Part shown: piece after piece, positions 17,783-21,598 of the stretch | Numbering within the stretch: the stretch's first letter is position 1 | Layout: every line of letters starts with the position of its first letter | Origin: a candidate division WOR-3 bacterium | Lineage (GTDB): Bacteria > Hydrothermota > Tepidihabitantia > SM23-42 > JAOAFX01 | NCBI GenBank assembly: GCA_039802005.1 | Contig: JBDRVV010000028.1 | Location: 1-32,536 of the forward strand | Direction of reading: 5' to 3' | DNA: 32,536 bases | The notes under the pieces: generated by a model | Seen by the model: only the letters and a program-made list of their open reading frames with translations | Database searches by the model: none | Told to the model about the DNA's origin: nothing | Made by a program: the position numbers and the translations under genes

Positions 17783-18925
17783 TTATAAGCCTGCTTCTCG
17801 CCTTATGGCATCAGCCATATCGGTCAATTCCCAGGTGAATCCTTCCTCTTCTCGACCAAAATGTCCATAACAGGCAGTCTTTTTGAAGACAGGTCTGCGC
17901 AAGTTAAGTTTATCAATGATACCCTGGGGAGTAAAATCAAATAATTTTTTCAAAATTTTGACAATTTTTGCTTCTTCAATCTTTGCGGTACCAAAAGTAT
18001 GGACATTCACAGCAACAGGTTCTGCAACACCAATAGCATAGGCAAGTGAAACTTCTACCTTATCACATACGCCCGCTGCAACCAGATTTTTTGCTGTATA
18101 CCTTGCAATATATGATGCAGAGCGGTCAACTTTTGTCGGGTCTTTTCCAGAGAAACAACCGCCACCATGATGTCCTACTCCGCCATAAGTATCAACCATA
18201 ATTTTTCTACCGGTAACACCGGTATCCCCCTGGGGACCGCCGATAACAAATCTACCAGTTGGATTTATATATATCTTTGTGTTATCATCTATCAATTCTT
18301 TTGGAACGACCTCCAGCACAACATGTTTTTTAAGATCGGCATGTAATTTTTCATTTTTTATATCAGGATGGTGTTGGGCAGAAAGAATTATTGTATCAAT
18401 CCTTATTGGTTTGTCATTTTCATATTCAACCGTTACTTGAGATTTTCCATCTGGTCTTAAATAAGTTAAAATATTTGTCTTGCGGACTTCGGCAAGCCTT
18501 CGGACAAGTTTATGGGCAAGTATAATGGGCATAGGCATCAACTCTTTCGTTTCGTTTGTAGCATAACCATACATCATTCCTTGATCTCCTGCACCACCGA
18601 TATTCACACCCATTGCGATATCACTTGATTGTTCTTGAATTGCAGTGATTATGGCACAGGTGTAGGCGTCAATACCCATATCTGTATCAGTATAACCAAT
18701 TTCAACCAGAAGGTCTCTGATTAAATCAGGAATTTCGACATAGCAGTTAGTCGTTATCTCACCCGCCACAAAAATCAATCCTCTGGTCGTTAGCACTTCG
18801 CAGGCAACTCTGCCAAAGGGGTCTTTCTCAAGTATTGCATCCAGAATAGCGTCTGCAGACTGATCGCAGATTTTGTCTGGATGGCCCTCGGTAACTGATT
18901 CAGAAGTTATAAAATATCGTGCCAT
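17783..18925 (-). CDS. metK: S-adenosylmethionine synthetase MetK
   Basis: MetK makes SAM from methionine and ATP. The 380-residue protein has all family motifs: [20 protein letters not shown] at the N terminus, [20 protein letters not shown] with the GAGDQG signature, and the phosphate-binding region [20 protein letters not shown]. The last has [10 protein letters not shown] where GGGAFSGKDP is commoner. It starts with ATG 18925 preceded by AAAGGAGG and a promoter overlapping the end of the Rsm22-like gene. There is no room for a SAM riboswitch in the leader, which is about 20 nt long. Confidence 0.97.
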
Positions 18926-18951: not shown

Positions 18952-18979
18952 ATTATAATTATTTTTGTTCAAAAATCAA
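18952..18979 (-). promoter_or_regulatory. Promoter of metK-SAH hydrolase, overlapping the end of the upstream gene
   Basis: On the minus strand TTGATT (18979-18974) lies inside the last codons of the Rsm22-like gene and TATAAT (18957-18952) follows after 16 bp. The mRNA should start near 18945 and include the AAAGGAGG SD before metK. Confidence 0.6.
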
Positions 18980-20093
18980 GCCTTTTGATATTCGTATCTC
19001 TACTGATTTTCCAAATTTTTGATTTGTTCATTAATGGGTTATTTATTTCTATTATATCTCCCATACAAACATGGTCAAATGACTCATTAATTACACTCCT
19101 TTCGCGATTCAATCTTATTAATTCTACGATACCACCTTCGGTGCAGATGAAACATTTTATCCTCCCTTTTTCAATAGATAATCGGCTTATAACAGGATAA
19201 TGATTAGCAGGGAGCGAATTAAAATTATAATTGGATATGATAAGATAAGAGAACTTTAAATATTCAATCTTTCTAAATAACTTTTGGTTAATCATTTTTA
19301 GATATTCTGGCGGGTTCCATTTTATGCTTTGATGGCACCATTCTTCTTTTTTGTGAAGTCCGGGGCATTTGCTATTGTGTAAACAAGGGGAAAGGATAAA
19401 ACCAATTCTATTTACTATTATATCATTATGTAATTTCATAAGCCTGCGGGTTAAAGTTTTTAGTGCTGGTTCTATTAGAATGATAATCCCAAATTTTTTT
19501 AAGCGTTCAAAGAGTGATTTGATAAAAGATAACGGCACTTTTTCCGATTTAAATATTTCAGTAAGGGCATTTGAAAGTATTATAAAATCGTAATTATTTT
19601 TATCCCTTTGAATGAATTTTTGCGCCGATTCTTTTATTAATTTTATATCAATATTGAAATTTTTCTGTTTAAACCAATCTCCCATTGATGTACATCTTTT
19701 GATAAATGTATCATTTATATCTATGCCAGTTAATTGAAATCTACTTTCGGGTTGCTTTTTATGCAGGAAATAAAAAATGCCAAACATTCCTGCACCATCT
19801 CCACAGCCAATATCCAGGATTTTGATTTCTTCAGGTATTGCTATCATATATAAATTGAATAATTTTTTTGTTAATATCATTGATTTCATAAAATTCTGAG
19901 GGAAATTATAGCAGAAATACGCATCCGAAAACTCTTTAACTACCCGACATTCATAAGATAATACCTGGGATAAAGTGACTAATTCTTTTCTTAATTTATC
20001 TATTTCTTTACAGTAAATATCAGGTCGGGTATAAATGTTATCTAAATGCAATTCCGAAAGGATTTTCTTTTCAATATCTTCAGGTAAGTTCAT
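18969..20093 (-). CDS. Rsm22-like (METTL17 family) SAM-fold protein linked to the small ribosomal subunit
   Basis: This is a 374-residue protein. A class I methyltransferase fold has motif I LDIGCGDGAGMF at 93-104, an acidic motif II in LTGIDIND and a motif IV-like SNALTEI at 174-180. Residues 236-254 carry the hallmark of the Rsm22 family, PC-x-H-N-x-x-CPG followed by EEWCHQS, with Cys237, Cys243 and Cys253 as probable metal or [4Fe-4S] ligands. In mitochondria these proteins assist small-subunit assembly. The gene overlaps the glycosyltransferase by 4 nt (ATGA) and is in the same run as rpsT, which fits a small-subunit role. Methyltransferase activity has been doubted for some members, so I call the fold and not the reaction. 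Confidence 0.75.
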   Translation of the reverse strand: MNLPEDIEKKILSELHLDNIYTRPDIYCKEIDKLRKELVTLSQVLSYECRVVKEFSDAYFCYNFPQNFMKSMILTKKLFNLYMIAIPEEIKILDIGCGDGAGMFGIFYFLHKKQPESRFQLTGIDINDTFIKRCTSMGDWFKQKNFNIDIKLIKESAQKFIQRDKNNYDFIILSNALTEIFKSEKVPLSFIKSLFERLKKFGIIILIEPALKTLTRRLMKLHNDIIVNRIGFILSPCLHNSKCPGLHKKEEWCHQSIKWNPPEYLKMINQKLFRKIEYLKFSYLIISNYNFNSLPANHYPVISRLSIEKGRIKCFICTEGGIVELIRLNRERSVINESFDHVCMGDIIEINNPLMNKSKIWKISRDTNIKRLDF

Positions 20094-21298
20094 TTTCTTA
20101 TGGATGCCACAAAATAGGCACTAAAGATAAGCAGATATAATTCTACAGGCATGCGATATCTTATCAAACCTACATGTGTGAATATGTATATACAGGAGAT
20201 AAAAAATAAAGAAAAAATGATGAATAAAACATTCTCGCGATTTCTCATTGATAAAAAAACGCCAGCCATACCTAAGATAAAATTCGGAAGATAAAAAATA
20301 TAAAATAAGATTCTAAATTTCTCAAGGTCTTTTGATGAGTACTCACCTGATGGTGCAAACCAGAAATAGTAGTAAAATTTTTTGAATATAAGCCCAATAA
20401 ATTTTAATGGCTCTCTTATGATAAAATTTAATGCTTCGTTTAAATAGAAATATGTGCGTTCAATTTCAGGAATTTTAGATAAACTGTCTTGGACATTAAA
20501 GGGCAGAGTATGGGTCATTAGAATGTATTCTTCTTTTTCAATTGATTTTATTTTAAAATAGTCGGTTCCCGTGGCATGCGGGTTATTCCCAATCCATAGA
20601 TTAACACCGAATTGTGTGGTTATGGGGATGAGCTTCTTATGAATATTATAATTTCTTATTGTCCATGGTGTTAAAATTATTAATGACATAATAATTACCA
20701 GAATCATTTTAAAGAAGTTTATTTTTTTGTTGATAAGAAACCATAAAAACATTGAAGGATAAATTACTAACGCCACAGGGTCGCATAATATAGCGAGTCC
20801 TGTAACCACACCGGCAATGATATAATGGAAAAAAATTCTATCACTGCTTTTTAGTATTAGATAGATTGTTAGTGAGAATAAAAACAAAAAGATGGTCGTA
20901 GGCACGAGTTTGGTACAATAATAAATCAGTGGGGGATATAATCCGGCAAAAAGTTCGGTTAAACGGGCTGCTGGGTCATTAAAAATGAACCGCGAAGTTT
21001 TTGAAATCAATAAGATCGTTATCGTTGAGATTATTGCCTGAATGATTTGGATTAAAAGAAAAATTATTGGTTTGGTGCCAAATTTATAAAATAATGCGAG
21101 AAAAAAGGGATATAATGGAGCATGGGACGAACTTGGTGCGGGTTGTGTTTCAATATTATAGGACCTGCTAAAGCCCTTGCCCGCAATAATGTTTCTCGCT
21201 ATTTCACCATACTCAAAGTCTCGCGGCGCATAAAAATTTGCAATCAGTATGATAAAAAAGATTCTTATAACAAAATAAAAAAGATATCTTTTCAGAAT
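20090..21298 (-). CDS. GT39/ArnT-like membrane glycosyltransferase with a probable AUU start
   Basis: The frame is open from the rpsT stop codon to 20090. An apparent TTG start at 21010 would remove the family's N-terminal region. Translating upstream gives a first membrane helix (KRYLFYFVIRIFFIILIANF) and then APRDFEYGEIARNIIAGKGF. The acidic residues there match the first-loop catalytic region of PMT/ArnT-type transferases. No ATG, GTG or TTG exists in this upstream part. ATT at 21298-21296 overlaps the rpsT stop as TAATT, exactly where a TAATG junction would be expected; CTG at 21295-21293 is the alternative. With ATT the product has 402 residues and about nine membrane helices. It probably transfers sugar from a polyprenyl-phosphate donor; the acceptor is unknown. 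Confidence 0.7.
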   Translation of the reverse strand: MLKRYLFYFVIRIFFIILIANFYAPRDFEYGEIARNIIAGKGFSRSYNIETQPAPSSSHAPLYPFFLALFYKFGTKPIIFLLIQIIQAIISTITILLISKTSRFIFNDPAARLTELFAGLYPPLIYYCTKLVPTTIFLFLFSLTIYLILKSSDRIFFHYIIAGVVTGLAILCDPVALVIYPSMFLWFLINKKINFFKMILVIIMSLIILTPWTIRNYNIHKKLIPITTQFGVNLWIGNNPHATGTDYFKIKSIEKEEYILMTHTLPFNVQDSLSKIPEIERTYFYLNEALNFIIREPLKFIGLIFKKFYYYFWFAPSGEYSSKDLEKFRILFYIFYLPNFILGMAGVFLSMRNRENVLFIIFSLFFISCIYIFTHVGLIRYRMPVELYLLIFSAYFVASIRK

Positions 21299-21564
21299 TA
21301 TGTAAGTTTAGTTCTTATGAACTTCGCCAATCTTTCTTTGTACCGGGCAGCGGTATTCTTTTTTATTATTCCATCTTGAACTGATTTGTCGATTATAGAC
21401 TGAACCTTGGGAAACAATTTAACCGCTTCTTCTTTTGACTTCGCCTTTCTTATCTTTTTAATCGCTTCTTTCAATTTCTTTTTCTTTTTTAAATTTTGTA
21501 AATAGCGCCGCCTTGACTTGCGAATGTTCTTAAGCACCGATTTAGACCTTTTCTTTATTGGCAT
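21298..21564 (-). CDS. rpsT: 30S ribosomal protein S20
   Basis: This 88-residue, strongly basic protein (MPIKKRSKSVLKNIRKSRRR, then a run of lysines) has the two-helix form of S20, with the conserved end of a helical hairpin in KNTAARYKERLAKFIRTKL. S20 binds 16S rRNA early in 30S assembly. The length is usual for bacterial S20. Its promoter implies a leaderless mRNA, and its stop codon overlaps the likely AUU start of the next gene. Confidence 0.93.
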   Translation of the reverse strand: MPIKKRSKSVLKNIRKSRRRYLQNLKKKKKLKEAIKKIRKAKSKEEAVKLFPKVQSIIDKSVQDGIIKKNTAARYKERLAKFIRTKLT

Positions 21565-21570
21565 AAAAGC

Positions 21571-21598
21571 ATTATATATAAAAATTAGAAAAAGTCAA
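21571..21598 (-). promoter_or_regulatory. Promoter for a leaderless rpsT mRNA
   Basis: On the minus strand TTGACT (21598-21593) and TATAAT (21576-21571) are 16 bp apart. The -10 box ends 6 nt before ATG 21564 and no SD site is present. Confidence 0.68.

Follow-up and report, generated by a model that had tools for sequence, protein, structure and literature searches.

A conserved non-canonical start, probably CUG, for the glycosyltransferase gene behind rpsT in a candidate division WOR-3 bacterium

Non-canonical start codons and translational coupling are both of known kinds, and the glycosyltransferase gene described here adds another member to them. The infC gene (IF3), which starts at AUU or AUC, and the Streptomyces sigR gene, which starts at GTC, have conserved, non-canonical starts that are repressed by IF3 (PMC5472188). 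In Staphylococcus aureus, the AUU start of cvfC1 and the AUA start of ccpN are kept between species and have extended Shine-Dalgarno motifs (PMC13009471). Coupling is documented at spacings of -4, -1 and +3 nt, and coupling in vivo without a Shine-Dalgarno sequence has been reported (PMC12548453). In a comparison of 36 genome triplets, start switches to CUG or AUU were very rare and CUG was at least as frequent as AUU; AUG had changed to CUG in two and to AUU in one of 61,358 cases, GUG had changed to CUG in one and to AUU in one of 5,080, and UUG had changed to CUG in one of 2,468, no AUU figure being given for the last (PMC5622118).

The window that we analyzed is a 32,536-nucleotide stretch from a candidate division WOR-3 bacterium (contig JBDRVV010000028.1 of assembly GCA_039802005.1), and the genome to which it belongs is referred to as G000. 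On its minus strand, rpsT, encoding ribosomal protein S20 (positions 21298 to 21564; Pfam PF01649, Ribosomal_S20p, E 7.6e-17), ends in CTT ACA TAA with the stop codon at 21300-21298. It is followed by a gene of 401 codons plus stop (20090 to 21295, minus strand) for a PMT_2-type, GT39-like glycosyltransferase, which matches Pfam PF13231 with an E value of 5.6e-12 and a score of 46.6 bits against a cut-off of 26.1. Matches to this protein were present in 64 of the 120 genomes searched, its own included, and the only others of the same genus were the sister species G001 and G002, whose proteins are 61 and 58% identical to it and score 41.2 and 46.6 bits with PF13231. A profile of 10 glycosyltransferase sequences found no PDB chain by sequence at 1e-3. 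The next two genes on the minus strand were named by eye; one is methyltransferase-like (18969 to 20093), the ATG of which forms an ATGA overlap with the glycosyltransferase stop, and the other is metK-like (17783 to 18925) and about 90% identical in both sisters. The gene order of rpsT, glycosyltransferase, methyltransferase-like gene and metK is retained in G001 and G002.

The glycosyltransferase frame opens past a TAA at 21310-21308, reads ACT TAC ATA ATT CTG AAA AGA TAT from there and closes at the TGA at 20092-20090. As the earlier note had stated, it is open without a canonical start near the rpsT stop; the first in-frame ATG, GTG or TTG is the TTG at 21008 to 21010 (minus strand), 95 codons past the CTG. 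The rpsT-glycosyltransferase junction is common to the three species, and a canonical start is absent from it in all of them. One might suppose that this TTG, being the first codon within the usual start set, is the true start, or else that the gene is decaying. However, the first canonical codon lies at a different site in each of the three species (codon 95, TTG; codon 83, ATG; codon 45, TTG), and the region ahead of it shows the purifying pattern that is seen in the remainder of the gene. Between G000 and G002, differences at codon positions 1, 2 and 3 number 26, 12 and 51 in the 94 codons past the CTG and 98, 48 and 188 over the 306 remaining codons, and in G000 the other two sense frames contain eight and six stops across the same 94 codons. 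Within the APRDFEYGEIARN stretch, residues E28, Y29, G30, I32 and A33 do not vary among 10 homologues. Seven homologues of other genera can be aligned over the first helix and the conserved EYG-IA stretch, across the codons that precede the TTG, and their ATG or GTG starts lie 8 to 13 residues further upstream still. The earlier note had allowed for homologues that begin near 21010; because those with ordinary starts begin so far upstream, the TTG is rejected as the start. A start at 21010 and a decaying gene together seem very improbable. As that note had also held, the part before the TTG, with its first helix and acidic stretch, is on this comparative evidence, together with the PMT_2 match, part of the glycosyltransferase.

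A consensus error that masks an ATG at the junction, also raised earlier, would have some appeal in a draft assembly of 62 contigs. Its probability is nevertheless negligible, as two separate assemblies of other species, G001 and G002, also lack ATG, GTG and TTG at the junction. Judged from these alignments, the non-canonical start of the glycosyltransferase is real and conserved.

Three near-cognate codons lie at the junction on the minus strand. The ATT at 21296 to 21298, which had been proposed as the start, overlaps the rpsT stop as TAATT; the ATA at 21299 to 21301 overlaps it as ATAA; and the CTG at 21293 to 21295 lies 2 nt past it. The last two adjoin the ATT and had not been weighed. 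The junction reads TAA-TT-CTG in G000, TAA-CT-CTG in G002 and TAA-TT-CTG in G001, each followed by AAAAGATAT, so that the CTG and its 2-base spacing from the rpsT stop are found in all three species. In place of the ATT of G000 and G001, G002 has ACT, and in place of the ATA of G000 and G002, G001 has TTA; thus, each codon is found in two of the three and they are missing in different species, and every species has some AUH codon at the rpsT stop. The proposal of AUU therefore does not stand well against the sister genomes, whereas CUG, kept in all three species as against two for AUU or AUA, is favored as the likeliest start. No Shine-Dalgarno-like run was seen by eye 5' of the CTG in the three species. 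A start in the third frame was considered and rejected; a TTG at -22 in that frame is present in G001 and G002 and absent from G000.

The CTG heads an invariant block, CTGAAAAGATAT (L/M-K-R-Y; 21284 to 21295, minus strand), that has the same codons in all three species. In the three-species protein alignment, 203 of the 405 columns are invariant, and the same codon is kept in 63 of these, including the first four columns; runs of at least four identical codons occur only twice in the 405 columns. Elsewhere in the gene, identical codons are found at 3 of 22 Leu, 4 of 8 Lys, 2 of 9 Arg and 9 of 23 Tyr columns, which gives a product of about 0.006 for the block, a rough figure, since adjacent codons do not vary independently and a gene start may be constrained for other reasons. 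A single codon is kept in four of the 23 invariant Leu columns, and the start-site column is the sole CTG among them; CTG is an uncommon Leu codon, making up 9.5% of Leu codons in the G000 sample. The codon that follows it, AAA, is a favored second codon directly after a start.

Taken together, we consider it reasonably likely that the glycosyltransferase starts at the CUG at 21295-21293 by re-initiation of ribosomes that finish rpsT. Some points count against CUG. The arrangement is carried by three species only; each of these also has an AUH codon at the rpsT stop; a survey of starts in 160 order-level pairs, covering 130 G000 genes, found no second CUG start; and in E. coli, CUG complexes are less stable than those with AUG, GUG or UUG (PMC11497404).

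The same survey, and a screen of a 452-kb sample of G000 for genes with long leads free of canonical starts, did reveal other non-canonical starts. At least four aligned columns ahead of both first canonical starts were found in 15 of the 160 pairs, and on reading, two cases were convincing, manC and a bifunctional nuclease, both of which have AUH starts. The remaining pairs look like antisense shadow, conserved leaders or short chance matches, and a general change of start-codon rules in the order is rejected, as the survey is convincing for these two genes only.

The manC gene (L081:8464-9498, plus strand, in G000; other order loci L088-L101, L155-L160, L162 and L163) encodes a mannose-1-phosphate guanylyltransferase-like protein by an NCBIfam match below the curated cut-off and a Pfam NTP_transferase match. 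At the expected M-K-K-F position, 22 of the 23 order genomes have ATT, in most cases preceded by a Shine-Dalgarno-like run; the 23 are all those with a match, and all were read. In G011 and G012, a TTG lies two codons or one codon 5' of the ATT. In four genomes of the same class but not of the order, the gene has an ATG. The nuclease (Pfam BFN_dom; L078:7816-8292, minus strand, in G000; others at L102-L104, L106-L115, L168, L169, L171 and L175) starts at ATT, ATC or ATA, mostly behind Shine-Dalgarno-like runs, in 17 of the 18 order genomes that were read, with six further order genomes that have a match left out of the count. Outside the order, two genomes have ATG and two more gave no resolved start. 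The exception within the order is the same for both genes; G003 (L161 and L105; genus g2), the one other family member searched, has the canonical starts TTG for manC and ATG for the nuclease. The infC gene of G000 (L067:13693-14262, minus strand) has AAGGAGGAGAAG before ATT AAA and a GTG eight codons upstream of the ATT without a Shine-Dalgarno-like run, and its layout suggests that it probably starts at the ATT behind AAGGAGGAGAAG. By sequence comparison, manC, with ATT kept as its start across the order, is a firmer and cleaner case than the CUG of the glycosyltransferase.

Because manC and the nuclease of the same order, and probably infC of G000, use AUH starts, an AUH start is kept as a rival for the glycosyltransferase. 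It would be AUU at 21298 in G000 and G001, with a one-base overlap, and AUA in G002, at spacings (-1 and -4) that are the commonest among coupled genes (PMC12548453). However, the start codon would then have moved between species, the manC and nuclease starts mostly follow Shine-Dalgarno-like runs of a kind that the glycosyltransferase junction does not have, and the invariance of CTG AAA AGA TAT would be left to chance. We regard an AUH start as a possibility to be taken seriously, if an unlikely one.

Relative to rpsT, the glycosyltransferase frame is -1, and its opening lies a few codons short of the rpsT stop, and so a -1 frameshift near the end of rpsT could in principle yield a fusion of S20 and the glycosyltransferase. 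This is highly improbable; the frame is open for just 12 to 42 nt upstream of the CTG, inspection by eye showed no slippery heptamer in the three species, and there is no common RNA structure (z scores of -0.59, -4.22 and -1.04), unusually good folding being found in G002 only. The strong hairpin of G002 (L003:2666-2746, minus strand; z -4.22) spans the rpsT stop and the CTG and is peculiar to that species.

The 5' end of rpsT has features of its own. A predicted sigma-70 promoter (21571 to 21598, minus strand) consists of TTGACT at 21598-21593 and TATAAT at 21576-21571, the latter 6 nt 5' of the ATG. This TTGACx/TATAAT layout is present in 26 of 30 rpsT loci, the best 30 of the 105 genomes with an rpsT match; it is found in all 25 loci within the order and in one of five same-class loci outside it. 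In all 25 order loci, 5 or 6 bases separate the end of the -10 box from the ATG; in the outside locus (L051), the distance is 8 bases. A -10 box so close to the ATG suggests that the rpsT mRNA is probably leaderless. In the G000 sample, a leaderless-type layout with TATAAT just before the ATG is common, occurring at 54 of 258 first ATGs as against 16 of 240 internal control ATGs.

With CUG as the start, the following series of events can be proposed. The rpsT gene would be translated from a leaderless mRNA, and a ribosome that terminates at its stop codon would re-initiate two bases on, at the CUG, without a Shine-Dalgarno sequence. The product would begin with fMet-Lys-Arg-Tyr, the first membrane helix coming next, and would be a membrane glycosyltransferase. 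The weak CUG would cap glycosyltransferase output at a small fraction of that of rpsT, and the methyltransferase-like gene would presumably be coupled in turn via the ATGA overlap.

In the classical coupled pairs trpE-trpD, galT-galK and rplK-rplA, the second start is canonical, unlike that of the glycosyltransferase. The likeness is that the second start of these pairs lies a few bases from the first stop, and one of them is a ribosomal protein pair (PMC12548453). With infC and sigR, the glycosyltransferase shares a conserved non-canonical start, low expression, which is proposed here, and a start that prediction misplaces; IF3 control has been demonstrated for those genes, whereas the glycosyltransferase start has no Shine-Dalgarno run (PMC5472188). 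As with cvfC1 and ccpN, the start is conserved across species; however, both of those have extended Shine-Dalgarno motifs (PMC13009471), and Shine-Dalgarno-like runs likewise stand before most manC and nuclease starts of the order, whereas the glycosyltransferase has none and would use CUG. A limited search for literature on WOR-3 start codons, or on manC with non-canonical starts, returned nothing relevant, which is no proof of unpublished status.

A gene finder restricted to ATG, GTG and TTG starts would drop the first 95 residues of the glycosyltransferase, including the conserved acidic stretch, and would truncate G000 manC behind its nucleotide-binding motif. If the proposal is true, a conserved CUG behind a leaderless rpsT would be a natural test of whether ribosomes fresh from termination evade the check on the start codon. 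A wider idea, which we offer as speculation and hold to be rather doubtful, is that, in the WOR-3 order, a few genes (infC with ATT, manC with ATT, the nuclease with ATT, ATC or ATA and, in one genus, the glycosyltransferase with CUG) are kept on deliberately weak starts, and that the level of IF3, whose gene infC is present in G000, or the supply of ribosomes sets their output, so that the synthesis of sugar nucleotides and glycans is linked to the capacity for translation.

Some minor observations on G000 remain. The 16S 3' end was not found by pattern in this genome, and scoring of Shine-Dalgarno-like runs assumed a general complement. A codon-score screen kept 298 segments, not all genes, and the glycosyltransferase of the window is not among the segments listed, probably because of its codon score. 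A stem pattern that we take to mark initiator tRNA has one match in the genome, and a tRNA-Met is found at that locus. Finally, an open frame at L071:19304-19831 (plus strand) has a lead of 82 codons in which no canonical start occurs; its AbiEii match is weak, falling slightly short of the Pfam cut-off, and it is possibly a truncated gene.
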